Source: Amia ocellicauda (Eukaryota > Chordata > Actinopteri > Amiiformes > Amiidae). From it: DNA of 64,000 nt. The translations under genes and the position numbers were made by a program. The stretch's first letter is position 1. The number at the start of each line of letters is the position of its first letter. Positions 465 to 62,859 of the stretch are shown one piece after another. Location of the stretch: the NCBI RefSeq assembly GCF_036373705.1, contig NC_089857.1, forward strand, positions 30,300,284 to 30,364,283, written 5' to 3'. The notes under the pieces are model-generated. The model saw only the letters and a list, made by a program, of their open reading frames with translations. It ran no database searches and was not told the origin of the DNA.

Positions 465-1367
465 GCCATCCCAAGACCAAGGCTTTCATCACCCATGGGG
501 GTACCAATGGGATATACGAAGCTATATACCATGGCATCCCCATGGTGGGCATCCCAATGTTTGGTGACCAGCCAGACAACATGGTCCACATGAAGAGTAA
601 AGGGGCTGCTGTGGTCCTAGATTTCAACAAGATGGAATCCAAAGACTTGGTGGAAGCCCTCAACACAGTGCTATATGACAAATCGTGAGTGTCATTTTCA
701 CTGTGGTTTGTACAAGCGGTACCAGAGCTGTGTCAATACACCATCATGTGGAATAATGCGCTGTTCTGAAACAAAATGTTTTAGCTTTTAATTTCAATAG
801 TTGAATTTGTGGAGATTAGATTAGATTACTAATGTGACATTTCAGAAGGTATCTGTTACAACAGTTATTAAAAGATGTACATGTTTTACAAGAGTACAAT
901 ATAATTTATATGCAGAATGTTCATATTAAAGATATTCACATATATTAAACATATTCACATTGCAACATAGCCTTCCATGAGACTCAATGGTTAACAGAAC
1001 CTGAAACCTTGCATGTGCTATTCAGGGCTTCATTTCTGTATTTTTTTCTTGGGTAAAAATTCTTCCATTCTTTTTTTTTACTAGGTACAAAGAAAACATC
1101 ATGAAGCTATCAAGAATTCACCACGACCAGCCGATGTCACCGCTGGACACAGCTGTGTTCTGGATTGAGTTTGTGATGCGCCACAAAGGAGCAAAGCACC
1201 TGCGAGTACAAGCCCACAACCTGACCTGGTATCAGTACCACAGTCTGGATGTCATTGCTGTGCTGCTGGCCTGTGTGGCGGCAGTGACGTTCATCTTTAT
1301 AAAAACGTGTAGCTTCTGCTTCCGGAAATGCTGCAAGAGATCCAAAACAAAAAGCAAGAAGGAGTAA
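465..1367 (+). CDS. UDP-glucuronosyltransferase (UGT2-type), 3' end only: exons 5 and 6
   Basis: Two coding exons, 465-684 (220 bp) and 1085-1367 (283 bp with TAA stop), with AG/GT borders and matching phases; earlier exons lie left of the window. Exon 5 carries the glycosyltransferase signature (ITHGGTNG, then a DQPDN core) that binds UDP-glucuronate. Exon 6 ends with one transmembrane helix (about [18 protein letters not shown]) and a basic tail ending KSKKE, a KxKxx ER-retention signal. Known of the family: type I ER membrane enzymes that conjugate glucuronic acid to lipophilic compounds. Exon sizes equal those of the second copy at 18209-19571, with only a few amino-acid changes (for example GDQPDN here, ADQPDN there), so this is a recent tandem paralogue. 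An ATTAAA poly(A) signal lies at 1411. Whether this copy is functional cannot be judged from two exons. Confidence 0.93.
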
Positions 1368-3365: not shown

Positions 3366-3720
3366 GGTCCAATTCCAAGGTTTGCCACTTAACACATACA
3401 TAATACTAAATAACTGTTATTATGATCCATGATTCACTTGTAAAGTGACAACATTGATGTGCATTGATGGATAGAAAAAATGAATGTGTTTGGAATCTGA
3501 TGTGGAGGTCAGAACTTCAGGGCTCTATAACTCTGCAGAATGTGTATGATAGATATACCAGCAAAGAAGAGGACAAGGCAAAGCACTGACACTGGAAGAA
3601 TATAATCTGTCTTCTAATAATCTGTCTTCCTTGCCATTTTAATGTCTTGAAGTGAATTCAGAACAATCAGCAGATGTATAAAGAAAATACCATCAATACA
3701 TAAAGCATAATTGGTTATTC
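3365..3720 (+). repeat. segmental-duplication block shared with 19735-20050
   Basis: A stretch running through 'CTCTATAACTCTGCAGAATG' and 'ATACCAGCAAAGAAGAGGAC' is repeated almost unchanged downstream of the second UGT copy at about 19735-20050. The duplicated unit therefore included 3' flanking DNA as well as exons. No open frame is supported. Confidence 0.75.
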
Positions 3721-4254: not shown

Positions 4255-4795
4255 TTAATATTTTATGGAAGCACCTCTGGCAGCAATTGGATTTACATTA
4301 GGGCTCTGACTGGGCCATTCATAGACATTAACCTTTTTGGTCCTTTGCCACTCCAGTGTATCTGTGGCTGTGTGCTTGGTGTTGTTGTCATGAAGAAAGG
4401 TGAACTTCATCATAGATTCAGATTTCTTGCAGAGGCAGCAGGTTTTTTTTAAAGATTTTTCTATACTTTGTTCCATTCATTTTCCCTTCTAGCCTGACAA
4501 GTGCCCCAGTCCCTGGTGATGACAAACATACCCATAACACGATGCTGCCACCACCGTGCTTCACAGTAGGGATGCCATTCTTTGGGTGATAATGCTTTGC
4601 ATTAAGGCCAAATAGTTCCATTTTCGTTTTGTCAGACAATAAAGCTTTTTGCCACATGGGTACAGAATCTCCTGAGTGTTTTTTGCATACTTCAAATGGG
4701 ATAAAAGGTGAGCTTTCTTTAGTAACATACAAGCCAGATTTGTGGAGGGCTTGATATATTGTCCCATGCAGCTAAATGTTTTGGGGGGCACATTT
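4255..4795 (-). pseudogene. decayed Tc1-like transposase fragment
   Basis: On the minus strand two overlapping open stretches in different frames (4418-4732 and 4255-4476) read as pieces of a Tc1/mariner transposase. Recognisable are a [10 protein letters not shown] segment (aligning with the first catalytic Asp region), [12 protein letters not shown], and HDNNTKHTA followed by EWPSQSPNVNPI. The third acidic catalytic residue region is lost, the frame changes near 4450, and the N-terminal half is absent. This is an old dead copy, clearly more degenerate than the element at 14256-15838. Confidence 0.8.
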
Positions 4796-5364: not shown

Positions 5365-6088
5365 ATGGATCCTCCCAGGAACCTTCTCTCTGTGCTCTTG
5401 CTACAACTTTTCCTGACACACAGCACGTTCAGCGGCAAGGTATTAATATGGCCTGGAGAATACAGCCACTGGCTCAATATGAAATGTATAATGGAGAAGC
5501 TGGTGGACAGTGGCCACACTATTACCGTACTGACTCATTCTGGTGCACAAAGTATCACCTACAACCAGACATCCAGGTATCACTTTGAAGTCTTTCCGGT
5601 TCCTTTCACAAAGCAGATGGCAAAGGAGCTCCTGGATAAAATGCTGAGGTACTGGACATATGACCTGCCCCATGATTCCTTCATTCAGGCCTCTCTGAAA
5701 ATCAAAGCCATGGTGGAGAAGCTCACTGACCAGCAACAGCAAATATGCAGGGCTCTCTTCAGAGACAAAGAGTTGCTTCACAAATTGAGACAATCCCAGT
5801 ATGATGTTCTCCTCTCCGATCCGATGACTTTCTGTGGTGACCTCTTAGCAGAGACCCTCGGGCTGCCCTTTATCTACACACTGCGGTTCTCCTTTGGCAA
5901 CACAATGGAAAGGATGTGCGGGCAAATTCCAGCACCTGCCTCATATGTCCCAAGTGTCGGTATGGAGTACACGGACAGAATGAGCTTCGTGCAGCGACTC
6001 AAGAATTTGCTGTTTTATTGGTCTCAGGACTTTATCTTCTATACTTTGGCAAGTACGAAATGGGATGCATTGTACACTGAGATTGCAG
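5365..6088 (+). CDS. UGT2-type variable first exon 1 (intact)
   Basis: A single 724-bp exon from ATG to a GTAAGT donor at 6089. The N-terminal hydrophobic stretch (about residues 7-18) is the expected signal peptide. The mature start GKVLIWPGEYSHW places the catalytic base His at residue 35, and YDVLLSDP places the partner Asp at 152, as in UGT2B enzymes. The exon also carries the acceptor-binding domain up to WDALYTEIAG. It ends one base into a codon and matches the start of exon 2 at 16387. No copy of exons 2-6 lies between this exon and that set, so splicing across about 10 kb is inferred. Joined product about 531 aa, normal for UGT2. The start is chosen because it gives the same leader length as the next first exon. 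Confidence 0.9.
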
Positions 6089-7016
6089 GTAAGTTATGTT
6101 GTTGTTTTTATAGGAGGGGCTGGTCTTTTTTGTTGTGGAACAACACATTTCAAAGGAGATGTAAGATATGTCAAATAAGAGGTACTGGTACCTCAAATTG
6201 TTGTGCAATGTGATTCTGAATCAATGCTTTTATTCAGTGCTATCCAGTAGCATTGGTTTGTTTCTAAGGAGTGGTGCACGGGGAATGGCATATTGCTTCA
6301 AGTCCACATTTTCCCCTCCTCTGCTCCTCGCTAATATACTGCAAAATAATAAGGCATAATTGAATGGCAGGAGCTGAAAATACATATTACAGTCATCAAG
6401 CTTCTTAGACATTTTTTTAAAGAAATCCCTGTTTATTTCATATATAAAATAAAATATTTAACCTAATACAATCCAATAGTTACTAACTTTCAATGTCATA
6501 AGCTTAATCGAGGTCGGAGTCCTGACAATTACAGACCCCTTTGAGAGAAGAGAGCACTTTAGATTTCCCCTTAAATTGAAATCAGTTCTAGTTCACATTT
6601 TATGAATTGCAAATTATTGCCACTGAGAGGCAGCATCATAATGTGGAATGAAATAAATGAATTGGTTTCTATAGTCACCTACCCGTTCATAACCATATAA
6701 TTCTAATTTGAATCCCCTTTAAAGTGGTTCAGTGGACCTGATCTTTGGAAAGGATCCTTACAGCTTGTGTTAGCAAGGAGTAAAGCCATTTTAATGGTTT
6801 CATCAGGTTGGCACAATATACATCTTACAAAACTCATGTTGAAGATAAGTTGATCTGTCCTAAAATATTCTAGGTAAGAGGTAATAACCCTGTCTGTAAC
6901 TGCAGTCCAAAAAGTTGTGTAATGTAGCTGTTGGCAGTGAGCCTGTTGGAATTTGTGATAAGATTGTGTGTAGCTTTAAAATGACATCTGCCGTTATCTT
7001 TCTGACAATTGCAGTC
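6089..7016. other. spacer between first exons; presumed promoter region of second first exon
   Basis: No coding sequence is supported beyond short chance frames. An alternative first exon would need its own promoter here. I saw no convincing TATA box or HNF1 palindrome by eye. Confidence 0.4.
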
Positions 7017-7740
7017 ATGACTCTCTCGAAGTGGGTCTTGTCAGTGCTCTGTCTGCAGCTGTGTACGACACAGACAGTGCTGAGTGGCAAGGTACTGATC
7101 TGGCCTGGGGAATTCAGCCACTGGTTGAACATGAAATCCATCATTGAAGAACTGCTGAACAGGAATCATTCGGTGACTGTTCTCATTCACTCTGGGTCTC
7201 CATCCATAAACTACAGGGAAACAAAAAACTACCATTTTGAAGTCTTTGATGTGTCTTTTCCTAACACCTCCTATTCAGATCTCGCTGATGAAGTGCTAAA
7301 CTTTTGGATGTATGAAAGCATGCAAACATCTTTTATTGGCATTTTTCTTAAGATCAGAGATATACTTCAGAGAATGCTCACTCTAAACAAGGATATCTGT
7401 GAACATTCAGTTAAAAACAAGGAGCTGATGGCCAAATTGAAACAGGCCCAGTATGATGTTCTCCTCTCAGATCCCGTAACACAATGTAGTGAAGTCTTAG
7501 CAGAGCATCTTGGCCTGCCCTTTATCTACTCAATGAGGATGTCTTTTGCCAATGTAATGGAGAGACTGTGTGGACAGATGCCTGCTCCTCCCTCGTATGT
7601 TCCAGCCACCCCCATACAGTACACTGACAAGATGAGCTTCATGGAGAGACTGAGAAATTTGAGATTTTATCTCATTCAGGACTTGCTGTTTTATGAGTGG
7701 ACATTTTCAAAATGGGATACTTACTACAGTGAGATTTTAG
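7017..7740 (+). CDS. UGT2-type variable first exon 2 (intact)
   Basis: A 724-bp exon, the same length as the first exon at 5365, ending at a GTAAGG donor at 7741 in the same phase. Residues about 7-18 form a signal peptide. GKVLIWPGEFSHW puts the catalytic His at 35, and YDVLLSDP carries the paired Asp. The frame is open further upstream, with in-frame ATGs at 6915 and 6981. I take 7017 because it gives a leader equal in length to the neighbouring paralogue. The protein segment differs from the first one through the substrate-binding half (for example SGSPSINYRETKNYHFEVFD) but keeps GLPFIYS and CGQMPAPPSYVP. It probably splices to the shared exon 2 at 16387. Confidence 0.9.
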
Positions 7741-8742
7741 GTAAGGTAACACTAATTAAAACTGTTGGCTGTTGTTGTTGTTGTGGTTGAAATAATATTT
7801 CCGAAAAGGTCTGATGTAAGAGTTCTAAAAAATCTGTCTAATATGATACATCAACTTATTTTGGTTTAAGACCCAATTTCAGTATTTAATGTTACTGGAG
7901 CCTTAATTGTTAACCTTGATTGTTAGTTAGATATTTTATAATAATTATAATAATAATAATAACCATGATAATAATATGTGGGGGCTTCCAGACAGACAGC
8001 TCTCAATTACCTGTATATTCTAAGGATATCATTTTATGGCCAAACCTCAGTAGCTGACATTTACCCTAAATAGGGAGGGGTGTCTTTTCACCTGTAGATT
8101 GTCTTCAGTAGATTGTCTTCAAAAAGTGCATGGTCAGGATACCTAGTGTGAGGTGTGAGCATAACAAATCAGGACAAGAAATCTGTCTTCCCATTCTGAT
8201 TCCTGTCCAGCTGCTCAACACTATTCTCCGTGTTTAACTAAGAGGGAGACTGTAAGCAGAGGGGCTCCTGGTAAATAAAAGTTAGTTTAAATTGCAAGTC
8301 CCTTCAAATGGATGATGGCCAGCAATGGTGGTGTGATTTTATTTAAACAAAGCTTGCACAGAGTACACTGGATAACACATAGAAATCAAGACTCAATCGG
8401 GAAGTGCTCTGCAGCCCACCTTGCATCCCCACCCCCGCCCGAAGCCCATCCAACAATCCAAGTGAGCACCTCTACACCACAGGTGGACTGGAGTGCAAAA
8501 CCAAATAAAACATGCAGACAAAGTGAAAACTGAATACAAACTGTAATTTAAACAAAGTGCAAATATAGAAATAAACAACGTAATAAAAAGTGAAGTGTAA
8601 CTTAAATACAGTGTAACTTGAACCCAATTAAATCACCAATCCAACCGCAGTGCAAAAGTGTACACCACGCCCACCAAACAGCCTCACGGCTTAGGCAGAG
8701 ATATACAGCAGAGCTGCAGAAAACTAAACAGGTGGGCTAAAA
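7741..8742. other. intergenic DNA with ATA microsatellite
   Basis: No gene seen. An AAT/ATA tract lies near 7938-7975. The rest is unique-looking AT-rich DNA up to the hAT-type element end at 8743. Confidence 0.5.
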
Positions 8743-9606
8743 CAGGGGTTCCCAAACCGGTCCTGGAGGACCCCCTGTCCTGCTGTTATCTTCGGAAGCA
8801 CTGCTCAAGGGGGAGGGGTTTCTGTGCACTTCCATAGGAACCCGATCGAAACGTCACTCTATCAAAGCTACCATTGGCCCCTGCGCTCGTCACTCAGAAC
8901 AGGTCCCTTCCCACATCCTGTTCTATAAAACGTGACGTCAGCGCAAGTTTGTCCTCTTTTGCCACTTCGCCACAGACGGAGAACGTGAGCTCTCTGTGTC
9001 TTGTTTGTGCATTAGACCTTATTATTATTTTTACAATAATTATGATTGCTGTTCGGTTGGCTGACTTTACAGCTGTGCTGTCACCACCGTTTACATCCGA
9101 CTCTGTTCCGTCCATGCTCCAGGGCTCCGGTGCGCTTTCGGTTTTAGTTTCGGCTACAAATAGCACACTTTAAAAATAATAGTCATGTTTATATAGTGCC
9201 TTATATATTCCGACTGCTTGCAGTGTTGGTTTTTTGTCCACAGGGCTTTTCTTCCACAGCAGGAGCGCTAGCAGCGGCAGTAAATCCAAGGCCCGGCTGC
9301 CCGGCCTGAGCCTCGGTGTGTCGTAAGAGATCTCACCCGTGTGAGGTGCTGCTCCTCCGGCTTGCTGGATCTCCACCTCTCCCCGGGCCCCTCTGTCTCC
9401 TCCTCCAGAGCTGCACCCCTCCTGCCTGTAATGCCCACGGTGCGTGCCCCCCACGCGTGTGCACGTGAGCAACAAGGAAGAGTGGCGGAGCGATGCCCCC
9501 GGGCTCCCTCCCCCTCTTCTGAGTCTTTGAGCCGCGCCGTCGGTGAAGGAGGTCGGGCTTAGCGGACAGGGAGCTTGATGAGGCCATCCTTGCTCTCAAC
9601 AGCAGG

Positions 9607-10437
9607 ATGGACCAAATCTGCGCTCTCCTGGCTGCGCAGGCAGTGCAAGCAGTGAAACAGTGCCGCCCCCCCCACACCTTGACGGCTCACACCGCGCCGG
9701 TGGATACTGAAGGGAGTCTGTCTGCCCCATCCCAGGAGGAGGGAAGCAGACGGGCCACCTGGGAGGAGGACTCTGGGTCCTCACGAAGACTCAGAGCTCA
9801 AGGCGGAGCTCATGGAGGAGGATCTGGTCGCTCCCCTCCGTTGAGCGTGGACGCCCCTCCTGCTCCCACAGGATAGGACAGGGAGTTCTGGGCAGTCATC
9901 CAGAGGGCTGTGGAGTCTCTTCAGCTCCCCTGGCCCTCTGATCCTGCCCCACCACGCTCCAGGTTCGAGACGGGTCCCACACGGGCCCTCCCACTGCTGC
10001 CTGACCTCCTCAATGAGCTGAGGGCTACCTGGGACCATCCGGTAACAGCCCCCGCCCTAGCCAGGAGAGGGGAGGCTTATGCCAGGACCCAGTGCATGGC
10101 AGAAGCGGGCTTGGTGGATTTTCCCTGTGTGAATTCCACCATAACCGCGCTCGTCTCCCTACCTCCGCTGTCCACAAAGCCACGTGACCTGGCCTGCCCC
10201 AACAGGCAGTGTCGCGTCATGGAGACACTGCTCCGGAGGGCATATGAGGCTGGAGTCCAAGCGGATCGCCTCCGAAATATGGAAAGCCTGCTGGCCTTGT
10301 ACTTGGCTCAGCTGGCGGAGCCCTCGGAGCAACATGGCGCATCACCCACTCCGCCCCCTATCTTGGTGGATCAGCTGGTCACGGTGATGCGCCAGGGGGC
10401 AAGGGCTTTGGCTGTCCCAGGCATGGCGGGTCCCTGA
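9607..10437 (+). pseudogene. DIRS gag-like ORF with premature stop
   Basis: One frame runs 9607-10437 but for a TAG at 9874-9876. The start is uncertain. The product has no recognised catalytic motif. Its position ahead of the reverse transcriptase and its proline-rich, Leu/Arg-rich composition fit the gag-like first ORF of vertebrate DIRS elements. Confidence 0.6.
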
Positions 10438-10456
10438 GGCGCACAGGACTCGCCTC

Positions 10457-12006
10457 ATGGACACCCCTATCTCACCAGGCTTTACTTTTGGCCCTTCTGT
10501 GGAGGAGATGCTCTCGCACACCCTCCAGGAGAGGGAGCAGTCCCTGCAGCTGGCCCGAGTGTACCCAGTGGTACCTCAGGTCCAGCAACCCAGGCCACTG
10601 ACCGGACCACAGCCCAGGTCACAGCCCCGCCCACCTGCCGATCTTTGCCAGCTTCTCACTGGCAGGCAGGCGCCACCCCAGTCTATATCAGTTGGCTACT
10701 CCCTGCAATTTCAGACACGTCCACCCCCCTTCCAGGGCATGGTGTGGACACGAGTGAGGGACCCGTTGCAGTGTGCCCCGCTGGGGCAGCACAAGAGATT
10801 TGATTCCCCATACTTCCTTGTGCCCAAGAAAGATGGTGGTTTCCACCCCATCTTGGATCTGAGGCACCTGAACCGCCAACTTCAAGATGCTCAACCTGCG
10901 CACCATGTCCCAGGCCATCAAGCCTGGCAACTGGTTCACCACAGTGGATCTGAAAAATGCTTACTTTCACATCCCCATTGCGCAGGCACACAGGAAGTTT
11001 CTCCGCTTTGCCTTCGAGGGCCGAGTGTTCGAGTTTGCTGTTCTCCCCTTTGGGATGTCGCTAGCGCCACGCACTTTTTCCAAGTGCATGGACGTCGTGT
11101 TAGCCCCCTTGTGTTGCCAGGGGGTCCGTGTCCTCAATTATCTAGACGACTGGCTGGTTTGTTCTCACTTGACGGAGCAGCTTCGGATAAACAAGGACCT
11201 GATTTTAGGTGGCCTCTCCGAATTGGGAGAATTCTTTGGACTGTGCCTCGATTCCATTGCCACGCTGGTGCCAGCGAGAGTTGCCTCAATACACACGTGT
11301 CTCTCCCTCTTCCGACTGAAAGCTCGTGTCAGGGTGTCCCTTTGCCAGAGGCTGCTGGGCCTCCTAGCGGCTGCATCACAGACCCTACCCCTCGGCCTCC
11401 TCCAGTTGAGGCCGTTGCAGTGGTGGTTCAGGTCTCTCAGGGTGCACCCTCGCCGCAATCGAACACGCCCAGTCATAGTCACTCCGGCGTGCTGGAAGGC
11501 GCTCCGCTGGCCCCTGGGGCCAGTCTACCACCGAGCAGTCATGATGACAGATGCCTCCAACCAGGGTTGAGGAGCAGTCTGCAACGGACTGCAACGCACG
11601 GGCCCTCCATATCAACATCCTGGAGTTACAAGCAATACTCCTTGGACTGTCTCATTTCCTGCCAGTCCTACGGGACAGACATGTGCTGGTTCGGATGGAC
11701 AACACAGCGGTGGCTGCCTATATCAAAAGGCAAAGAGGTCTCCGGTCACATAGATTGTATTGTCTAGTACGCCATCTGCTTCTGTGGGCGCAGCCATGGT
11801 TCCTCTCCATCAGAGCAGTTCACCTCCCAGGCCTGTCCAACACGGCGGCGGACCTCCTCTCTCGGGAAGGCCCCCCGGTCTCGGAATGGCGCCTTCACCC
11901 GCTTGTGGTACAACAACTGTGGAGCCAGTTCGGCAGGGTGGACGTGGATCTCTTTGCCTCGGCAGAGTCCACACACTGCCCACTATGGTTCTCTCAGGAA
12001 CCCTAG
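10457..12006 (+). pseudogene. DIRS reverse transcriptase and RNase H, frameshifted
   Basis: The frame opening at 10457 contains SPYFLVPKKDGGFHPILDLR (RT fingers). A frameshift near 10880 moves the continuation into another frame holding VDLKNAYFHIPI, LPFGMSLAP and the YLDDW catalytic motif (near 11140). A TGA at 11568-11570 stands where a Trp is usual after TDASNQG-type sequence. Another shift near 11595 leads into RNase H (HINILELQAILLGL, then MDNTAVAAYI, ending near 12006). YxDD followed by W and this domain order fit DIRS rather than LTR retroelements. Not translatable as one protein. Confidence 0.85.
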
Positions 12007-12069
12007 GGATCGACGCGCAAGCCCACACATGGCCGCGCTGTCTCCTTTACGTGTTCCCACTGAACTCAG

Positions 12070-12580
12070 CTGAGCTGAAGCTGGTGTCACTTAAGACTGG
12101 GTTTTTGCTGGCAATCACCTCTGCAAAACGCATGAGCGAGTTACACACCTGTCCGTACACCCATCGTGTGTCCGTTTTGCAGGAGATGGCTCCAGGGTCA
12201 CGCTACGGCCTAACCCTGCGTTCCTCCCAAAACTGCTGTCTCCATTCCATGTCAATAGGCCTATTGAGTTGATGGCTTTTAATCCTCCTCCCTTCGCTTC
12301 AGAGCAAGAGAGACAGATTCACCTGCTCTTCCCTGTGCGGGCCCTCAGGTGCTATTTGGAACGCATTAAGGACATTGGGCGCTCAGACCAACTGGATTGT
12401 AGACTCCAATTCCATGGCCTACGAGTCCACCGGGACCCCGGTGCCTGATCACCTGGTAGCCCACTCGACTTGAGGCGTTGCCACATCATGGGCCCTTTTT
12501 CAAGGTGCCCCCTTGGCAGACATATGTGCGGCTGCAGCTGGATCAGCTCGCTACCTCCTCCTTTGCGATGGTTTTGTTAT
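12070..12580 (+). pseudogene. DIRS tyrosine recombinase remnant
   Basis: A segment with KLVSLKTGFLLAITSAKRMSEL matches the beginning of the DIRS recombinase catalytic domain; further on, frames read CYLERIKDIGRSDQLD and then VAHST-stop-GVATSWA. The TGA at 12471-12473 falls on the Arg of the HxxR catalytic box, the change expected when a CGA codon decays at its CpG. At least one more frameshift lies between 12240 and 12430. Non-functional. Confidence 0.7.
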
Positions 12581-12586
12581 ACAGTA

Positions 12587-12690
12587 ACCTCTCCCCCTTG
12601 GGCAGTGCTTCCGACTTGAAAGATAACGATAGGTTGCGTATGCAGCCCCGGTTATCTGAAAAGTGAAGTACTGCCCAAGGGTTGCAAGGT
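12587..12690. repeat. DIRS internal complementary region
   Basis: 12587-12614 (through CTCCCCCTTGGGCAGTGCTT) is the reverse complement, with one or two mismatches, of 8791-8819. A related block, GAAGTACTGCCCAAGGG, follows at about 12664-12681. In DIRS elements this region templates completion of the termini from a circular intermediate. Confidence 0.7.
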
Positions 12691-12906
12691 CTCGTGGGAG
12701 TCCCAGCTCCCACCAAAAGAGGACGAACCTGTGCTGACATCACGTTTTATAGAACAGGACCTGTTCTGAGTGATGAGTGCAGGGTCCAATGGCAGCTTTG
12801 ATAGAGTGACGAATGCAGTATAAGGCTCAACTATATAATTTAGAGCTAGGTTGGAACAAAAACCAGCAGAGCAAAGGGTCCTCCAGGACCCGTTGGGAAA
12901 CCCCTG

Positions 12907-13702
12907 GCCTAAAACACTAAAATGGTTTTATAAATAAAAGGCACAATAATACAATTTAAAAACCCTCAAGGAAGATTAATAGTTCTAAAATATCTAAAAC
13001 CCAATAAAAGAAAAACAGCAAGATTGAAACAGACTTGTTCATATGGGCAGGTGGGGCAGAGTCTCATAAACTCATTATCCACATCAATACATCATACAAT
13101 CAAATTTTGACACAAATGGAATTAGAATTTGATTAATTGCTACAGATTACAGGAAAAGGTGTGAACAAGAACTTGTTGCAAAAATATCTTTAAACAGTTC
13201 TAAATAGTGACACTAATTAATAGGGCCCAATAACAGGATAAGTTTTACATTACTCATACCTTTATGTTTTATATGTAGACAGCTAAACCCTGGAATACAT
13301 AATACAGTTAAATCACAGGTAAGATTCACAAGCACACACCTCTCTGATACAACCACAGGCACTCATAAAACTAATGCATTTCTGAAGTTTCTCTCTGATC
13401 TGAGGCTGGAGACTGAGACCTCATGTGCCCTTTGTCCTACCATAATAATAATTTGCACTTCCTTGCAATCCTTTGCATTCCTCATGTAAGAAACAAAACC
13501 TAATAACCTGTCATCTGATCTCTTACATGTTCTCAAGTGACCATAAACTTTGCTAGGTCAGATAGTGTTTAAACTTGACAGTTGTATGAAATTTGCTACC
13601 TGATGCACTTAACTTTTTTTTTCGATTTAAGTTAATCATTAAATTGTTCACAATATTGTAGGGTGATATAGAGAAGCCAGATCTTGGCTCTAGGCACAAT
13701 AC
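12907..13702. other. intergenic DNA upstream of dead first exon
   Basis: AT-rich with no supported gene and no repeat end recognised by eye. Confidence 0.4.
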
Positions 13703-14462
13703 AATGAAGGCTGTACTCTGTCCACAGGCTTTTCTGTTTCTGCAGATTTGTATAGGCAGCAGTGACTGTGGCAATGTCTTAATATGGCCCACAGAAGGGA
13801 GCCATTGGCTTAATTTGAAACATGATAGAAACATTCACAAGCAGAGGACACAATGCCACAGTGTTGGTAAGTAATGCCACTCTTCTCATGGACTACACCA
13901 GTTTTTCGACCTTCAGCTATGAAGAGACCATGCAATACTGGTTGGACGAGTTTTTCAAATTTTGGATTTACGGGTCTGAGCATATGAGCTACTGGCAGAC
14001 TTTCCGCACATTCATGGATATGATGTCCAACGACATAAAAATTAGTCTTCAGATTTGTGATGGTGTACTGCGTTCTGAGCTGCTCATGGAGAAACTGAAG
14101 GAGAGCAAGTTTGACCTCATGCTCACAGATCCAATTTATCCCTGCAGTGAACTTGTGGCTGAAATACTTGGTGTCCCCCTAGTTTACTCCTTCAGGTTCT
14201 TGGTAGCCAACACCATGGAGAGACACTGTGGACAAATACCAGCTCCCCCTTCATACAGTGAGGGAAAAAAGTATTTGATCCCCTGCTGATTTTGTACATT
14301 TGCCCACTGACAAAGAAATGATCAGTCTATAATTTTAATGGTAGGTGTATTTTAACAGTGAGAGACAGAATAACAACAAAAAAATCCAGAAAAACACATT
14401 TCAAAAAAGTTATAAATTGATTTGCATGTTAATGAGGGAAATAAGTATTTGACCCCTTCGAC

Positions 14463-15469
14463 TTAGTACTTGGTGGCAAAACCCTTGGCAATCACAGAGG
14501 TCAGACGTTTCTTGTAGTTGGCCACCAGGTTTGCACACATCTCAGGAGGGATTTTGTCCCACTCCTCTTTGCAGATCCTCTCCAAGTCATTAAGGTTTTG
14601 AGGCTGACGTTTGGCAACTCGAACCTTCAGCTCCCTCCACAGATTTTCTATGGGAGTAAGGTCTGGAGACTGGCTAGGCCACTCCAGGACCTTAATGTGC
14701 TTCTTCTTGAGCCACTCCTTTATTGCCTTGGCTGTGTATTTTTGGTCATTGTCATGCTGGAATACCCATCCACGACCCATTTTCAATGCCCTGGCTGAGG
14801 GAAGGAGGTTCTCACCCGAGATTTTACGGTACATGGCCCTGTCCATCGTCCCTTTGATGTGGTGCAGTTGTCCTGTCCCCTTAGCAGAAAAACACCCCCA
14901 AAGCATAATGTTTCCACCTCCATGTTTGACGGTGGGGATGGTGTTCTTGGGGTCATTCCTCCTCCTCCAAACACGGTGAGTTGAGTTGATGCCAAAGAGC
15001 TCGATTTTGGTCTCATCTGACCACAACACTTTCACCCAGTTCTCCTCTGAATCATTCAGATGTTCATTGGCAAACTTCAGACGGGCCTGTACATGTGCTT
15101 TCTTGAGCAGGGGGGCCTTGTGGGCACTGCAGGATTTCAGTCCTTCACGGCGTAGTGTGTTATCAATTGTTTTCTTGGTGACTATGGTCCCAGCTGCCTT
15201 GAGATCATTAACAAGATCCTCCCGTGTAGTTCTGGGCTGATTCCTCACTGTTCTCATGATCATTGAAACTCCACGAGGTGAGATCTTGCATGGAGCCCCA
15301 GACCAAGGGAGACTGACAGTTATTTTGTGTTTCTTCCATTGGTAATCGCACCAACTGTTGTCATCTTCTCACCAAGCTGCTTGGCAATGGTCTTGTAGCC
15401 CATTCCAGCCTTGTGTAGGTCTACAATCTTTTCCCTAACATCCTTGGACAGCTCTTTGGTCTTGGCCAT
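14463..15469 (-). pseudogene. Tc1-like transposase, one frameshift
   Basis: The start ATG at 15469 ([16 protein letters not shown]) leads through a paired-like helix-turn-helix ([16 protein letters not shown]). The frame then shifts near 15345. The main part, open to 14463, contains the catalytic residues: WSDETK (first Asp), HDND (second Asp) and [11 protein letters not shown] (Glu), a DD34E arrangement. [12 protein letters not shown] is intact, and the protein ends GFATKY. Apart from the single frameshift the reading frame is whole, so loss of activity is recent. The product would cut and paste the element at TA sites. Confidence 0.9.
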
Positions 15470-15524
15470 GGTGGAGAGTTTGGAATCTGATTGATTGATT
15501 ACTTCTGTGGACAGGTGTCTTTTA

Positions 15525-15600
15525 TACAGGTAACGAGCTGAGATTAGGAGCACTGCCTTTAAGAGAGTGCTCCTAATCTCAGCTCGTTACCTGTATAAAA
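15525..15600. repeat. perfect hairpin inside the Tc1-like element
   Basis: TATACAGGTAACGAGCTGAG with its continuation is repeated inverted after a spacer of about 10 bases, arms of about 35 bp. It lies between the transposase start and the right terminal repeat, and could form a stem in DNA or transcript. Confidence 0.8.
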
Positions 15601-16386
15601 AAGACACCTGGGAGCCAGAAATCTTGCTGACTGATAGGGGATCAAATACTTATTTCCCTCATTAACATGCAAATCAATTTATAACTTTTTTGAAATGCGT
15701 TTTTCTGGATTTTTTTTCTGTTATTCTGTCTCTCACTGTTAAAATACACCTACCATTAAAATTATAGACTGATCATTTCTTTGTCAGTGGGCAAACGTAC
15801 AAAATCAGCAGGGGATCAAATACTTTTTTCCCTCACTGTATGTACCTGATGCTATGGGGAAGCTTACAGACCACATGGATTTTACAGACAGACTGATCAA
15901 TATGTTATTCTATTGATCTCAGGACATTTTGCAAATGTACTCTTGGACAGAAATGGACTCATATTATAGTGAAAACTTAGGTAAGAAACAAATATTTTTA
16001 TTTTGGAGGGATGAACATATTTCAATGCAAAACAAAACCAAAATTAATTGCATACCTGTTGGGTACTGTTTTGACAGTGTTTTGGTTCATGTCTGGGTCC
16101 TGGTTAAACCCTTCATCATTACCCTCATAGCTTGGCCAATGAAAATGCTAAGGTCTCTTTCCAAACGAATTTGTGTGTGATTATTGTTCTCTTAATATCA
16201 TTTTTTTTTACATTCGTGTATATATTGCCATTGTGCACAATATTGAAACAGAACAAACCACAAAGGTTTGAAAAGATGACACCAGCCCTGAATTTGTGTG
16301 ATGGTTAGCTTTGTAAATTGTTTGGCTTTACTGTGTGAAAATGTGAAGGAATTGCTCCATAACTTAACCTTCTCTCTTCCAAAAAG

Positions 16387-19300
16387 GGAAGCCCACCACA
16401 TTCTGTGAGACCATGGGGAAGGCGGACATCTGGCTGATCCGTACCTACTGGGACTTCGAGTATCCTCGACCCTTTCTGCCCAACTTTCAGTTTGTAGGAG
16501 GACTTCACTGCAAACCAGCTAAGCCACTTCCAGAGGTAACACTCAAAATTGATCTTATTTTCATTAATTTGCAGACAGAGATATGAGAAATGTGTAGGGT
16601 CAACATGTACAGTCAGGAAATATGGGTTTAGATGAGAAACAATGCAGTCATTACATTACAGAGCTGAAGAATGAGAGAAACAGAACCCCCTGAACAATGT
16701 TTTTTTTCTGTGTGAAATATTGTAATGTGAGACTGACTGCTCTTTCAGGCCATGGAGGAGTTTGTGCAGAGGTCTGGAGATGACGGCATCGTGGTGTTCT
16801 CTCTCGGATCGATGATCAAGAATCTAACCAGCGAGAAAGCTAACATGATTGCTTCTGCTCTGGGACAAATAAAGCAGAAGGTGTGTTTCATTTTATACAA
16901 GTATCTAAAAGAGAATAAACATTTTTCTTTCCCCTTGTGTTGAAACAGCTTTTTCTGTGACATCCTGATATTTGTTCATGCCATTTTTAAATGCTCGATT
17001 ACATCTCAAAGCAGTGCTATGAAACACAATGCAATACAGTTTGTTGATTTATTATATTTGCTCAAAACCTTGAACCATTCACTTGGCGGAATACCCAATG
17101 GTTTCATAGGGAACACAATAAGCCGAAGCAATTCATAAGGAGTCAAAGGGCACAGGCTTAGCCTCTACAAGGTTTTTGGCAAGGAAGGGTATTGGTTTGT
17201 TACTTAATCTTAAAGGACTCTAGCAGCATTCATGGATTCATGAACCCCCCAACATGCACACCTTGTACTTTAATAAGAATTGAGTCTCCAGTGTGTGTAT
17301 TAGACAGTCCTATTACAAATTGCTCATCCTCCTGTGTTTTCAAAACAAGGTAATAATGTGAACAAATATATAAGCTACATTTATTGCATGTGTGAATGTA
17401 AAAAATATTAAATAAGGACAGGTCATTTTGTTTAAATCCTGGGCAAATCTGGGAGTGTTGTCAAAGCATTTTCCAGAGGGTCCAAATGATTGCAAGTAAT
17501 CTGTAATTTGGAAACCTCTAGTAATAGTTTGGTCATTGCATTACCCTAATTTCAAACTTGGTCCAATGTCCCACTCTCTAGAGGGAGTTTCAATGGTGCT
17601 GATCTAATCAGTACAGTTTGTCAAGGTCTCGGAGCACGGCTTCATGCCTGTTGGTGTTTTTGTGATTGACAGGTTCTGTGGAGGTACAGCGGGAAGAAGC
17701 CAGACACCCTGGCTCCCAACACCAGAGTTTATGATTGGATTCCTCAGAATGACCTGCTGGGTAAGGCTTTCTCATTTGAAGTCTTATCTGATGAAAGCAC
17801 AAGGGGGCAGTTTGGCCCATGAGCTGTGCTTTTTACCTGTAGTATTAAGCACACACCACAACACAACACAAACCAATGAAGCACTTACAATTACTGTGTA
17901 ATTACAACCCCAAACAGGTAATAATACACACTGAGAGAATGTAAATTCTGATATAGCTTTAATGCATACAGTAGCATAGTGATGCTCAAAACCATTCTTC
18001 AAATAAACATTTCATTTCCAATGTATTTATACACATACAACATGTCTTCTAAATGCAAAATGACAGGAAGTAAACTTGGAAAGTATTTTTATACAGAGAA
18101 TGCATTTTTTCCCAGTGCAGCTAACTCTTTCTGCACAGATTTTTACATTATTCACTGTAAGCTTATTTTAAACAAACTAAACTAATATTGCTGGTGTTCT
18201 GCTGATAGGCCATCCCAAGGCCAAGGCTTTCATCACCCATGGGGGTACCAATGGGATATACGAAGCTATATACCATGGCATCCCCATGGTGGGCATCCCA
18301 ATGTTTGCTGACCAGCCAGACAACATGGTCCACATGAAGAGTAAAGGGGCTGCTGTGGTCCTAGATTTCAACAAGATGGAATCCAAAGACTTGGTGGAAG
18401 CCCTCAACACAGTGCTATATGACAAATCGTGAGTGTCATTTTCACTGTGGTGTGTACAAGCTGTTTTCTATACACCCTCATCTAGAATAACAGCATGTAA
18501 CACATCTTTTTTTTTTGTTCCTGGGTAGTAAGTGTTATTTCCTAATTGCTTATGCCTCAAAGTATAGAAAATGGCTGTTATTCCCCACAAACTTTGCTTT
18601 TGTGACCAGGACAGTGATATTTTGAAATGTAACTATTTCCAATGAGAAAACAGGCAAATTTGTGTCTTTTCGTTCACATAAAGTCAGAAAAAAAAATATG
18701 AATCCAAATTAACATTTATTTATACTAAAGTAATACAAAAATGACTACAGAAGATTTAGAAGTGAGTAGTTTTTTGAGATGTACATATATTCATATGTCG
18801 TTTTTTTCTGAATTTATGTGAACGAAAAGACACAAATTTGCCTGTTTTCTCATTGGAAATAGTTAAATTTCAAAATATCACTGTCCTTGTCACAAAAGCA
18901 AAGTTTGTGGGGAATAACAGCCATTTTCTATACTTTTGTGGCATAAGCAATTAGGAAATAACACTTACTATCCAGGAACAAAAATTGTGTTACATAGTGT
19001 AATGTGCTGTTCTGAAACACACTGTTATTGCTTTTTATTTTAATACAACTTGTGGAGATTAGAATACTAACGTGGCATTTCAGAAGGCATTAAGAAAGTT
19101 ACTCAAAGATATACACGTTTTACAAGAGTACAATATAATTTATATGCAATACCATATTCACATTGCAACATAGCCTTCCACAAGACTCAATGGTTAACAG
19201 AACCTAGAACTTTCCATGTGCTTTTCAGGGCTTCATTTCTGTACATTTTTTCTTGTGTTAAAAACTTTCATTAATTGTTGTTAACTAGGTACAAAGAAAA

Positions 19301-19571
19301 CGTCATGAGGCTATCAAGAATTCACCACGACCAGCCGATGTCACCGCTGGACAGAGCTGTGTTCTGGATTGAGTTTGTGATGCGCCACAAAGGAGCAAAG
19401 CACCTGCGAGTACAAGCCCACAACCTGACCTGGTATCAGTACCACAGTCTGGATGTCATCGCTGTGCTGCTGGCCTGTGTGGCGGCAGTGACGTTCATCT
19501 TTATAAAAATGTGTAGCTTCTGCTTCCGGAAATGCTGCAAGAGATCCAAAACAAAAAGCAAGAAGGAGTAA
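16387..19571 (+). CDS. UDP-glucuronosyltransferase (UGT2-type) shared exons 2-6
   Basis: Five exons: 16387-16535 (149 bp), 16749-16880 (132), 17673-17760 (88), 18209-18428 (220) and 19289-19571 (283, stop TAA). These are the classic UGT2 exon sizes with AG/GT borders throughout. Exon 2 begins in the phase left by the first exons ([19 protein letters not shown]). Exons 3-5 form the C-terminal nucleotide-sugar domain: [11 protein letters not shown], then [27 protein letters not shown] and DQPDN. Exon 6 has one transmembrane helix, then a basic tail ending KSKKE for ER retention. Added to a 724-bp first exon the CDS is 1596 nt, 531 aa. An ATTAAA signal lies at 19615. Intron 5 carries the foldback element at 18491. 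The enzyme should glucuronidate lipophilic substrates in the ER lumen. Confidence 0.93.
18491..18999. mobile_element. foldback MITE with ~200-bp inverted arms
   Basis: The left arm 18491-18695 is the near-exact reverse complement of 18800-18999 (for example AAAATGGCTGTTATTCCCCA on the left and its complement on the right). Ends read CAGCATGTAACACA and, inverted, CACTATGTAACACA. TAA flanks both sides (18488-18490 and 19000-19002). The paralogous intron near 751-756 has a single TAA with no insert, which proves insertion. A 3-bp TAA duplication suggests a PIF/Harbinger-type element. No transposase inside. Confidence 0.88.
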
Positions 19572-21804
19572 ATCTTTGCCACTGTGTTTGTGTCTTTTCA
19601 CTTTCGTTCCTTTTATTAAAAATCATTTCTGAATCTGTCTTTTCAAATCATCTGAATTGCAAATCACTTATTTTAGTGGGCTAGAGAACTTCAGTTTTGA
19701 CAATTTTAACAAGTGCCTTTATTCCCGCCCCTTTTTCCAGGATTGTCCATGTAACACACACATATTACCAAATAACTATTATTATGATCCATGATTCAGT
19801 TGTAAAGTCTCACTTTGGTTTGCACATGTATAGTAAAATAAATATGTTTGGAATCTCATGTGGGGGACAGTCCTTGAGGGCTCTATAACTCTGCAGAATG
19901 TGCATGATAGGTATACCAGCAAAGAAGAGGACAAGGCAAATCACTGACACTGGATGACAATAATCTGTCTTCTTTGCTATGTTCGGATGTTGGAGTGAAT
20001 TCAGAACAATCAGCAGCTCTCGGAAATACCATGAATCAGTCTGAAATCAATGTTTAAAAAAATAGTTTCTGCTGGGTTTCTTTATTAATATATACTGTGT
20101 GTTTACAGTGTAGAGAGTGTAAAGTTTGATTATGGTTTAAAATTTCCAGTTTAGAAAGTAATCTGAATTTTGTTTTTGATAGCATTTAGGGCTTTTTCTC
20201 ATAAACAACTAAACTATATTGCTCTGAAATATAAATGGTCTGTTTATAATCTTATTGAATACAAAACCTAGCCCTGGTCCAGATTTTTTTTGTTTTCAAT
20301 ATTGTTGAGATTTACTAAACCGTAAGATTAAAAACTCCTAGAAGTAAAATTGAGGACACAATTTACACATCCAATGGTTCTACTATCTGCTTCCCATAAA
20401 ATAAAAATACACTTCCCCCAGATTACGAATTCCTCTATAGAAAAGGTTCTAGTGCTTTTGCTGGGATACTGTGCCTTGGAAATTGATCTTGCTTTGTTAA
20501 CACCCATCAAGTGGTACTGTATATTGCCTGCTCGGGTCAACCACCAGGGGGCGATGCACAAATTGCACGAATAGTGTAGCTATATCCTGCATTGGTAAGA
20601 AATGCATAACCAGATGCCTTAATCTGATAGTTTTTAAAACTTCGTGAATCCCAATAGATTTTATTTTACATATTTACATAGATAAACTGAACCCTTCTGA
20701 AAGAGAATACAATTGTACATTATGGTGTAAAATATGAACACATGGGGTTACTTCAACCTTTTGTTCAACAGATGCAATCAGATTAATGCACATTACATGT
20801 ATTGGGGAAATGTTTCAGGGTGTATATTTTGAGGACTATGAAAATAAGCATTATGATTAAATATACACATACACATATATATATACACACACAGTGCTGT
20901 AGTGATTTTTGTGCGTGTCAGGATACACGTTCCCTGCTTTATTGATGCATTTTGAAATTGCAAGAGAATACTGTTTTATTGTTTGAAGTATTTTACATTT
21001 TCAAATAAAAACATTTCAATTTTTTTAATACTTAGGATTAAAAAAATTAAAAAATCAATTCTTAAAATCACTTAAAAATTTTAAAATCTGTGTGATTTAA
21101 CGAAAACAAAATACTTAACTTCAAATAAACAAGTGCACAAAACAACAAAACAAACGTGATTAAAGCAAAACTGCTACCAACAAAAAGGTCAAATACATTG
21201 ATAATAACTGAAAATGCACTGGACAAAATAAAGAAACAATTAAAAAGGTAAAAATAAAAAACAAACAAAAAAGGTCCAATGCATTTAAAATTAAATCCAA
21301 AACGGACAATGTATTTGACAAAAGAATATAACAAAACTAAACCAAAAAAACCCTAAACAATTAGTGATTTAAAAACAACTCAATCTTTAAAAACAGTTAA
21401 GATTCATTTTAAAATCGTTTTAAAAACAATCATCCATAAAATAATTAAAAGATCATTTTTAAAAGAAGGGAAGACAGAAGCACGCAGTTCCGTGCCGCTT
21501 TCGGCGTCGCTTTGCCCGAGAAGGAAGCACCGAAATACGCAGGCGTGAAATCCGGGGGACGGGAAAGCAGCCCAGCGGCAAAAAGCCTTTGTGATGCAAT
21601 CGATGCAGTGGATTGTGGGGGATCGTATTAGAGCAAAGAGAGAAGTCGGGCGCCATTTTAGTAGTGGTGGGGTAAAGACAGCCGACCGTAGGCATTTTCC
21701 AATCTTGTTTCTTACACCTTTTTAAAATTATAACTAAGGTCATTACAAGAGGAGGCAAAACGAGTCCACTGAAATTAAGCGCCAGGCAGAGAAAGGGGGG
21801 GAGG
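19572..21804. other. intergenic: UGT 3' end to YTHDC1 promoter
   Basis: Begins with the UGT 3' UTR, then the segmental-duplication block at about 19735-20050. An AT-rich stretch follows, with a CA/TA tract near 20865-20895 and an A-rich zone 21000-21470. From about 21480 the composition turns GC/CpG-rich: the YTHDC1 promoter and 5' UTR. Confidence 0.6.
21480..21804 (+). promoter_or_regulatory. YTHDC1: YTHDC1 CpG-rich promoter and 5' UTR
   Basis: There is a sharp rise in CpG content just before the ATG. GCCATTTT at 21652-21659 matches a YY1 core, common near housekeeping start sites. No TATA box was seen. The exact transcription start is unknown. Confidence 0.55.
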
Positions 21805-24800: not shown

Positions 24801-27800
24801 TGGATGAGATGACATTTGATTTAAAATAAATAGGCTAAGCTCTTCTCAACCATGGTAAAATTGACAGCTGAGATTTTACATTTTAAGTGATTTTTCCTGA
24901 AATGAAAATAAGAGCTTATGACTTCTGCTACTACCCAGCCCTATGTGCCAGCATTTCCTGTTCCTAAGAGACTCGTAAGGTTATTTTCCCCTTCTTCTCT
25001 CCCCTGATTGAAGTCTGTTCATCGGTAATTGTGGGTTGACTTGTGTTAGAAGTTTTCACTATGGGTTGCTACTTGGATGTGTCAAAAATATAGGTGAATA
25101 TAGGAAAGGAAGGCTGAGTCCTTTATACAATTGCAGTTTGAGAACTATAGAGCAGTCCTTTACAGTGCTAAATGGACACTCTAACATGAGGGACATGTTT
25201 TCCAATTTACTGTTCAGATAAGGACATTAAAGAGAAGAAGCGGGCTAGAAGGATTTCTCCAATCGTTTTTGATAGAAGTGGAAGCTCAGCTTCAGAATCC
25301 TATGCAGGTATTAAAGATCCCCAAACAGTTTTATCTGCACATATGCTTAGGGTGCTGAGGAGAAGTTTAGGTTCCCTTTATCATTTCCTAACCACTGTAG
25401 TTCACTGCTTTTGAGTGTAAACTAACCTGCTTTTGTCTTTCCCGAAGACTTCTGGTGTACCTGGTCAAAATGGGTACTAGATAATGGTTTCATCCCTGCG
25501 TTGACATTCTTGGATAACTGGCAGGTTTAAAGAAAGTACAATGTCTAACTGTAGAATCAATTGTATGGTCCTTTTGAATTAACATCCAATAATAGTGCTT
25601 TTGCGAATACAAATGTATTTGTTATTTACTAGATGTAGTTGTTTTTTGTACAATTGGAGTGTATATTGTTTTTTCCATGACTTTTGTTTTTGTGCTTTTA
25701 AGCATGTAAGCTTTGTAATTTGCATAATGCAGGGTTGAAACAATATACATAATGCCAATCTGAGATATTTTAACCAGTTTATATAGTAGAACCATATGTA
25801 TCCCTGGAAAAGCAGGTCGGATTACCTTAACTCCAAGGCAGGACAGAGCATGTCTGGGTTCTCCATGAAAAGCCCTGTAGATTCACCAGTGAGTCCTAGG
25901 CTAATGGATGCCTTTTGTTTTGCACTTGACAGATTCAGATTTTGGATTATGAAGGATTTCTTACACAGACAAGTTGTTTTAAACTGTAGCAGTTATCAGT
26001 AGATTTCAGCAAGCTGTCTATAGATTGCAATTTGATACCAATTGTTTATCCTTGTGACTACTGGCAGTGTTATACTCTCCCCTGTTGGCTACCTCACATA
26101 GTGTAAATTTCATACATCAGAGTTGATCTTTTGATTTCAAACCTGTATTTAAGATCTACCCAAAAATGCCTTAGATTTATTGCACAGTCATGCCAGTATT
26201 TAGTTTGTACAGAATCTAACTTGTTCATGTAAGTTTTTTTTTGTTTGTTTCAAGCATTAGTGATAGTTTCTCATTTCCAGAGTTGTGTAGCCCTGCATTT
26301 GGGCAATAAGCTAAATATGTGTTCTGCTTTAAAGTGGTTTGCTTGTGTTGTGCTTGCAAATGTAATATGCAGTATTTTGTTATACAGGGTCTGAGAAGAA
26401 GCATGAGAAACTTCCTTCTTCCGTTCGAGCTGTCCGCAAAGGTAGGCGATGGGGAACTCATGGGGAGGATTTATAAAGATTTTTTTGTTTTTCTCTCCAG
26501 GGTTTTAGACTGCCAGGTTTTCCCAAAGTAAAATATTTTTGGAAACTCAACGTAAAATCATCCAGTGTATGTACAAATAGATTGGTATTTATTTTTGTTT
26601 TCCCTCAATTATTTGAAATCATAAACTGTTCTGTGTCAATGTACAGCCACACATACAGTCATTACTTATAATCAATATGGAAATGTCTTGTTAAAACATT
26701 TTTGGCAGTTACAGTAATGTGGTGGTTTGAGACTGTTTCAAGGGGGACTTCTATTAAAAAATAATCCTGTTATCTCAAGGCATTTTCTTGCTTTGCGTTG
26801 TTCCTTTGGGAGTACTAAGCATGTTTGCACTTCTGCACAAAACTGGGTAACCTGCTGACAGTTCCTCAATTGATCATTTACTGCAGACAAGATGCAATCC
26901 TTTAAATAACTGCAACATCTAATAGCACTGCAGTCTGTGTGACTGCTTTGTCAGTTTGTGAGGAAGAGATGGCCAGTCATTATTGATCTGTCAGCATCTG
27001 GAAATCTTTGTGGCTTCTCTGTGAATTCAGGATGAGGATGAAGTTCTCACCTGTTGTAAACCTTTAACTATAAAGAATTTAATGTGATTGATATTTTCAT
27101 TTAATGTCCATTTAATGTATTATTTCTAAGGGAAGTAAAATATACCCCTTTTTTGCCCTTTTCCTATTAAAGCAGTGTCTTATGTTGCTCGTACTTATAG
27201 ATCAGACAAGTAAATTGAAGTACGTCCTGCGTGATGCCAGGTTTTTCCTGATTAAGAGCAACAACCATGAGAATGTTTCACTGGCCAAAGCAAAGGTAGG
27301 TCTTTTATGAAGTTTGAACATTTTCATCTTTCTCTGTGTAGTCAGAATGAAGAGCACAGTTTTCACTTTCTGTGTTTTGTCCCTTCCACTTTCTCACTGT
27401 TTTTCTGCTTTTTCAAAATTCCCTATAGCCATTTTAACTTTCTCCCTTTTTTGTTAATGTATTTAAGGGTGTTTGGTCCACACTGCCAGTCAATGAGAAG
27501 AAGCTTAATGCTGCATTCAGGTCGGCCAGAAGTGTGATCTTGATTTTCTCCGTGAGAGAAAGTGGAAAGTTTCAAGGTAAAAAAAATTGGCTGCTATTTG
27601 AATTAAAGAAACAAAACTTATGTCATATTTTCAGTGTTTTTATGTATTGCCTTGCTTTCTTTTGCTGTAGGTTTTGCAAGGCTATCATCAGAGTCTCACC
27701 ACGGTGGATCACCAATACATTGGGTTTTACCAGCTGGAATGAATGCAAAAATGCTTGGCGGTGTATTCAGAATTGACTGGATATGCAGGTAATAGAAACT

Positions 27801-38508: not shown

Positions 38509-42170
<3,662 letters not shown>

Positions 42171-60779: not shown

Positions 60780-62859
60780 CTAAAAAAATGTAAGTCTAGT
60801 CTGGCCGTCACTTCTTCCTGGTACTTTTTCATAGGTCAGTTTTCTCCTCTTCATCTGAGGCAGAATCATAAATCCTTCTGGAACAAGAGAAACATGGAGT
60901 AAGCTCATCAAACCCTAAACAGCTGTTTGCTACTTATCTGTGGCACCTAAAAATTGATTCAGCTGAAGGTGTATTTATGATAAAATGTACAATTGCTACT
61001 TATAGAAAAGGGGGAGGTTGTTTTTTGCATTACTAACATGTTCAACTATATTTTCTACAGGGTGTTATTTGCAATTTAGCTTTGCACTGTAAATAGCACT
61101 ATTCTATGGGGCCTTGCTTTTATTCTCAGTTTCATTTGAATGGTGGTATAACTGATCTAACAAAGATGCAAATATACAAATGTGATTATCCTGACTCAAA
61201 CAGTAATATTACCACCCTAAGTTACAGACAAACAAACAAACAAATTGTAGATGAGCACCTATTGTGGCCTGTTCTACTATAAAAATATTCCCTACAGATA
61301 ATTTGATCTTTACAGCGCCAGGTGTGCAGTACCTGATGCCACCTCCTCCTCTGGGCTTCCAGCTCCCCTTTTCCTCTCTGATGTGCTTCTGATGGGCCCC
61401 ACCATGTCTTGGTGGCCACACAGCTGAGCGGAGTATTGGGTCTTGCTGAAGCCAAACACAGAGTCTGCTAGCAATCCCGAGGCACGGCCAAAGGGAGTGA
61501 TGCCGCCACCCCTCAGGGTTTCAGGTGACTTCCGTGGCATATAAAAGCCTTCACTGTGGCACAGGGGGTCAGGGAAACCCACGCTAAACTGAGACGCATG
61601 AGTAGGCTGCTGGGCATAGTAACTAAGGGGTCTCCTCTCAAAGAGACCATCGTGGTCGTAGTCCTGAAGGTCACTGTAGCCTATGGCAGACATCTCTGGC
61701 TGTGCTGGTCCTCCTGACCCCCTCTCAGAATGACGCCCCCCAAATTTAGAGGCCGGAAACTGCAGGGCACACTCCTCATCCATCCGTCTCAGTGTCTGAT
61801 CCCCACTGCATCCCCACTGCCTGGGGTATTGATCAGAGTATTGATCATGGCTGACACTATGTGTTTGCCAATAATTGTCATAGAAATGATCTAGCTGTCC
61901 ATTACCTTCGGTTTCTTCTGTTAGGTCAAAGGGTATCTGATCATGGTTGTATGTTGCCCAGTTTTCTGCACAGGCTGACCTACCTAAGAGGTCCACCTCA
62001 GAGTAGAACTCGTAATTTTGGTCTAAATCCTCTAGCCTGCTCTGAGGACCTTCTCTGCTGGGATCTGAGTACTGCTTAAGGGGATCTTGAGCCAAAGAGG
62101 TTGGAGGAGAGTGAGATCCGTTCAACTTGTAAAGAGCCGTGGTGTCGCTGAAGTGCTGAAATCACAGAGGCAGAAAAAACATTGTAAATGCATGAGACCA
62201 CCTTTCTTCTACAACCACAAAAGCGTGAAATAGCAGAAATTAATTTGAAGGTTCCCATTATGCCCATTAGTAACTGCTGTGAGTAACTGGAGCAACACTA
62301 CATGCAGAAGTTCTAACCTTTGTGTGAACAGGACCATTTAACCCAGCAAGTCTTGTGTGTATCGTTTCAACCTCGGTTTTACATCAGGCTTTCAAAACAA
62401 GGTAAATTAAATGGGATGGGAGTGTTATGGGTTTGAACAGTAATAGCAATAGTTATTACTGAGAATGGATACAACTGAGATCCACAACCCTGGCCCAGGA
62501 GAGCAGGTCACCCTGGGATCATCAAATTACAAACACTAGGGAACATTGAACACAGGTGCTCTGGTTAATTTAGTAAATTAGAGATCAATCCAAACACCCA
62601 AACTTTTGCCTTTTTGAAAATGGAAGCCACTTAGATACTGAAACTTTTCATCATTCAGTTGTGAAGCTCCAATTGGAGACCCATTGTGCAACAAAAAGGG
62701 TGACCTCACCTTGATGACTTTGGGGGGCACCTCTGGGAACAGTTTCTGTAGTGCTGTCAAGGTGGCCCCAAGAAGCCACTCCAGTGATGTGGCCCTTCGC
62801 AGCATGAGCTGCGCCACCAGAGGGTTAATACAGGGGAATGACAACAGGCACCTCTCAGC
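60780..62859 (-). CDS. SHOC1: SHOC1-like meiotic crossover protein, 3' end (three exons)
   Basis: Minus-strand exons in transcript order: 62859-62710 (150 bp), 62155-61333 (823) and 60877-60780 (98, stop TAG). Borders are AG/GT and phases join, giving 356 residues. The first exon is a helix-hairpin-helix module ([20 protein letters not shown] then [17 protein letters not shown]), continuing [12 protein letters not shown] in the next exon. This is the HhH pattern at the C-terminus of XPF-like proteins. The long second exon is low-complexity, Asp/Ser/Tyr-rich and probably disordered. The last exon ends [19 protein letters not shown] plus three residues. The position next to GNG10 on the opposite strand is exactly that of SHOC1 (C9orf84) in human 9q31. 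Known role: the partner of SPO16 that stabilises meiotic recombination intermediates. The nuclease-like core and N-terminus lie beyond the right edge. Confidence 0.82.

Follow-up and report, generated by a model that had tools for sequence, protein, structure and literature searches.

A UGT2 locus of Amia ocellicauda with two intact tandem first exons and a dead copy ahead of a single set of exons 2-6

Anatomy of the locus

The window analyzed here, a 64-kb stretch of contig NC_089857.1 of Amia ocellicauda, contains two intact UGT2 first exons (1a and 1b) and one dead copy (1c), followed by a single intact set of exons 2-6 spanning 16387-19571 (Table 1). This is the arrangement that the original prediction, made from the bare sequence, had proposed: two intact first exons of 724 bp, a dead one and one set of exons 2-6, all of which turned out to be placed almost to the base. 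It had further read a partial copy at 465-1367 as suggesting a second unit of the same kind. Here, the presence of a second UGT2 unit stands, while its having several first exons is not something the window displays, as the first exon or exons of that unit lie outside it. Nor is the copy one span, consisting instead of an exon 5 and an exon 6 with an intron between them.

Table 1. Exons and inserted transposon of the UGT2 locus (positions are those of the window)
Feature	Position	Strand	Description
Exon 5 of the neighboring upstream UGT2 unit	465..684	+	218/220 bases same as downstream exon 5
Exon 6 of the neighboring upstream UGT2 unit	1085..1367	+	278/283 bases same as downstream exon 6
Variable first exon 1a	5365..6088	+	724 bp; start codon; acceptor-binding half; His35 and Asp152
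Variable first exon 1b	7017..7740	+	724 bp; His35 and Asp152
Dead first exon 1c, 5' part	13704..14255	+	Frame broken; ends at transposon insertion site
Tc1-like transposon in exon 1c	14256..15838	-	1583 bp; inverted ends; TA on both sides; transposase frame
Dead first exon 1c, 3' part	15841..15980	+	In-frame stop, then GTAAG
Constant exon 2	16387..16535	+	149 bp
Constant exon 3	16749..16880	+	132 bp
Constant exon 4	17673..17760	+	88 bp
Constant exon 5	18209..18428	+	220 bp; part of donor-binding half
Constant exon 6	19289..19571	+	283 bp including stop; membrane anchor and lysine-rich tail, by eye

The splice signals of the constant set are complete, with an AG acceptor at all five exons and a GT donor at each of the four that need one. 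The acceptor of exon 2, to which both first exons would be joined, is AAG; this belongs to a weaker class of acceptors and counts against the set being shared. When either first exon is joined in silico to exons 2-6, the result is a reading frame of 1596 nt coding for 531 amino acids with one terminal stop, and both of these products cover positions 1-497 of the 499 in the UDPGT profile (E = 6.4e-222 and 5.3e-221). A separate feature of intron 5 of this unit is a fold-back element (18487-19003) whose arms measure 136, 50 and 27 nt (98, 96 and 78% complementary, respectively), where the upstream unit is gapped. Searches of the window against Rfam gave no match at the gathering score, and those against NCBIfam gave three sub-threshold matches across three proteins.

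The assignment to the UGT2 family rests on the exon structure and the neighboring gene. The donor half is most like the donor domains of the solved human UGT2B15, 2B17, 2B10 and 2B7 (E = 5e-83 to 4.3e-82), and UGT2B donor domains are the only vertebrate UGTs among the best 60 of 114 structure matches; as those 60 include no UGT1 chain, the likeness alone cannot separate UGT2 from UGT1. The coding sequence is distributed over six exons of 724, 149, 132, 88, 220 and 283 bp, of which 149, 132, 88 and 220 bp are the usual lengths. By published definition, the UGT2 rule is six coding exons, of which the first two are equivalent to one UGT1 variable exon; UGT1 genes combine four constant exons with a single long variable one (861 bp in the euteleost Ugt1a genes cited); and UGT5 genes have their entire reading frame in a single exon, with one exception cited (PMC2819257). 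We accordingly rejected membership in UGT1, given a 724-bp exon 1 with five constant exons, and in UGT5, given a frame spread over six exons. On the same strand downstream lies an exon of YTHDC1 (frame 27438-27776), with a YTH domain (5.3e-11) and a best match to YTHDC1 chains (1.9e-17, versus 1.1e-08 for YTHDC2); it is called a neighbor on the subset of frames searched between 19571 and this exon. The SULT1 side of the cluster is beyond the window.

The first exons

The frames of exons 1a and 1b are open throughout, and both stop one base into a codon (phase 1) at a GTAAG donor (CAG|GTAAGT in 1a and TAG|GTAAGG in 1b). The original prediction had claimed this ending for all first exons, which holds for these two; the dead exon 1c retains the GTAAG (TTAG|GTAAG), but with a broken frame its phase is undefinable. 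Each intact first exon alone matches Pfam UDPGT (1.2e-51 for 1a and 1.6e-50 for 1b), which excludes chance as the source of either, and a signal peptide is predicted in 1a. His35 and Asp152 occur at identical positions in the two and are presumably the catalytic pair. One His and one Asp in the acceptor half are described as essential to UGTs, beyond which the cited source does not go (PMC2819257).

Aligned without gaps, 1a and 1b are identical at 453 of 724 bases (62.6%). By the Nei-Gojobori method, 100.58 of 151.8 synonymous sites (pS 0.662) and 170.42 of 571.2 non-synonymous sites (pN 0.298) differ. With a dS of 1.61, which is near saturation, only the direction of this comparison is safe, namely that the sequences point to divergence under protein constraint.

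Exon 1c has a frameshift in its 5' part and a stop in its 3' part, and is therefore dead independently of the Tc1-like element that splits it. The inverted ends of this element are about 200 bp long and 98% complementary, and its minus strand holds a stop-to-stop transposase frame of 301 codons with matches to HTH_Tnp_Tc3_2 (2.1e-23) and DDE_3 (3e-12).

Upstream of 1a there is a TAAATA at -73 and upstream of 1b a TTTAAA at -42, neither of which is decisive for a promoter of its own. Compared by blastn, the 500 bp ahead of each first exon, 1c included, show no clear likeness to one another, with only matches of 15-18 bases (E = 0.36, 0.36 and 0.03). Within 300 bp of 1a or 1b we found no HNF1-like site scoring at least 9 of 12. 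Among 500 stretches of 300 bp drawn at random from the window, 30.8% have at least one site at 9/12. A palindromic HNF1-like site, matching at 11 of 12 positions on both strands, lies at 13631-13643, about 60-75 bases before the dead exon 1c.

A variable/constant cluster and its alternatives

A variable/constant cluster has two or more intact first exons of the same phase ahead of one constant set, as do exons 1a and 1b here with exons 2-6. We searched for further constant exons by tblastn, with both in-silico products against the whole window and E up to 10. Besides exons 5 and 6 of the upstream unit, this search recovered exons 2-6 and all three first exons, and to this E-value it revealed no convincing relic of exons 2-6 between the first exons and 16387. 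The sole constant-region match in the interval 6088-16387 (8978-9109; E = 2.6 and 3.1) falls within a retroelement, and we read it as chance, as we do the remaining weak matches dispersed across the window (E = 0.18 to 8.2). The earlier claim that no copies of exons 2-6 lie between the first exons is thus borne out, and the assembly gaps that might have hidden such copies are absent, with 0 N in the window. Likewise, the proposed UGT2 variable/constant layout fits the anatomy, the splice phase, the exon lengths, the absence of other constant exons and the YTHDC1 neighbor.

Hence, with a probability of roughly nine in ten, we interpret the locus as a UGT2 cluster in which exons 1a and 1b, each probably with its own promoter, are alternatively spliced to the shared exons 2-6 to give two glucuronosyltransferases. 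Under this proposal, a first exon would have been copied by tandem duplication and a third copy would have died, with a further UGT2 unit situated upstream. Transcripts would start at the separate promoters of 1a and 1b, and, going by the sequence signals, the donors at 6088 and 7740 would both be spliced to 16387 in Amia. The two predicted enzymes would then differ in the half that takes the substrate (aglycone) and have in common the membrane-anchored half that binds the UDP-sugar.

The best-surviving rival holds that only the nearest intact exon, 1b, is used and that 1a is the orphan of a gene whose constant exons were deleted. The use of 1a is predicted from sequence, and UGT2 units with their own constant exons do adjoin such clusters, as in zebrafish ugt2a5 and 2a6 (PMC2819257). 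However, the full openness of 1a, its GTAAG donor, the His and Asp it has in common with 1b, the protein constraint indicated by their divergence and the zero constant-exon matches in 6088-7017 combine to make an orphan improbable. More improbable still is an assembly artefact by which exon 2-6 copies belonging after 1a or 1b would have been collapsed. An identity of 98-99% between the neighboring units in exons 5 and 6 might mislead a short-read assembly, but the window has no N, the two units visible in it are clearly different in their introns and flanks, and the layout agrees with known clusters.

We also give very little credence to the last possibility, that besides its alternative use 1a splices into 1b, doubling the acceptor half in a protein of 773 aa. 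An acceptor-like CAG two bases before the 1b start (7010-7019) permits an in-frame join by phase, the chain of 1a, TC, 1b and exons 2-6 being in frame with one terminal stop, and the pyrimidine content of the site (0.65) is above that of the acceptors of exons 3-6 (0.53-0.59) and below that of exon 2 (0.76). This is a weak measure, however, as 20% of the window's AGs score equally well or better. In zebrafish, transcripts of these clusters begin immediately ahead of each variable exon, with no such splice described in the part of the source available (PMC2819257). The ATG of exon 1a is likewise preceded by CAGTC, which has few pyrimidines in front of it.

Comparison with other UGT clusters

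The closest counterparts of the Amia locus are the zebrafish ugt2a and ugt2b clusters, where the variable/constant layout of ugt2a1-4 and ugt2b1-4 was proven by full-length cDNA cloning and a transcription start was mapped immediately ahead of each variable exon (PMC2819257). They have in common with it variable first exons arrayed in tandem (712-733 bp long in ugt2a), five shared constant exons, the death of some variable exons (2b2 and 2b4) and the presence of more six-exon units alongside (PMC2819257). With the zebrafish layout cDNA-proven, the Amia locus is a further example of a known organization, differing in having two intact variable exons and one dead one that is split by a Tc1-like element.

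Similarly, the UGT2 genes of birds share exons 2-6 between SULT1 and YTHDC1 (PMC6209164), and chicken and zebra finch have three variable exons (PMC2819257). The shared exons and the YTHDC1 neighbor are paralleled in Amia, whereas its window also takes in the tail of another UGT2 unit, which has exons 5-6 of its own. Mammalian UGT2A1/UGT2A2 again offers two first exons and shared exons 2-6, the human first exons being 64% identical in DNA (PMC1885805) as against 62.6% in Amia. The UGT1 clusters have the variable/constant principle in common with this locus but differ in the number of exons and the length of exon 1.

Among the teleosts studied, shared UGT2 constant exons were found in zebrafish only, according to the available part of that study (PMC2819257), and we counted this against the shared set proposed here. 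For the same reason, the known range would widen if the source of the window is a fish outside the group of the zebrafish. A literature search on UGT2 in the spotted gar returned nothing on this subject by title. Taken as proposed, the locus is one further instance of a vertebrate UGT2 variable/constant cluster, with a transposon-split dead first exon beside two live ones.

Likeness of the two constant sets

The upstream unit and the one described above (compared over 465-1434 and 18171-19638) are alike in a manner centered on their exons. Over exons 5-6 they differ at 1 synonymous site out of 104.0 and at 6 non-synonymous sites out of 394.0. In intron 5, by comparison, 44 of 349 BLAST-aligned bases differ, with many gaps and with the aligned parts being the best conserved by their very selection; a full alignment of the same intron agrees with this (295 of 357 bases alike). 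The disparity between synonymous and intronic divergence is significant (Fisher p=1.1e-4), in a test made post hoc on just two exons. Likeness drops beyond the exons; it is still 92-93% over the 38 bases that precede exon 5 and the 67 that follow the stop codon. Further out, 325 bases downstream of the upstream unit (3373-3697) match 19735-20036, downstream of this unit, at 78.8%, which suggests that the whole UGT2 unit may have been duplicated in tandem.

The excess of intronic over synonymous differences is a hint of exon-centered homogenization, in which gene conversion is possible. The simplest reading would be ordinary conversion in short tracts, limited by the diverged introns; another would be a hidden constraint on synonymous sites. 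More doubtfully, we raise the idea that the constant exons are homogenized exon by exon, possibly with a spliced RNA (cDNA) as donor, even as the introns and variable exons diverge. If this were true, a concerted constant half and a variable half under birth-and-death would coexist within one array. Gene conversion is reported as not prevalent in the UGT1, GCNT2 and UGT2 clusters, the exception in the part of that paper available being the variable exons of dog UGT1 (PMC1885805). Our literature search on gene conversion or concerted evolution in UGTs found nothing beyond this paper. Set against it, the exon-centered resemblance between the constant exons of the two units is what, among the present findings, bears on an open question.

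Other elements in the window

The intron between exon 1b and the dead exon 1c houses a retroelement of about 4.2 kb (8743-12906) with RVT_1 (6.5e-16), a weak RNase H-like RVT_3 match (2.1e-4) and inverted repeats near its ends that are 84-93% complementary; we take it to be a candidate DIRS-like element. On the minus strand, the frame 4418-4771 appears by eye to be part of a Tc1-like transposase; this frame and an open frame of 283 codons (61310-62161), also on the minus strand, matched no Pfam profile at E up to 1 and up to 0.001, respectively. Downstream of YTHDC1, an open frame at 38521-38865 encodes a DnaJ domain (1.6e-14) and presumably belongs to DNAJC25.
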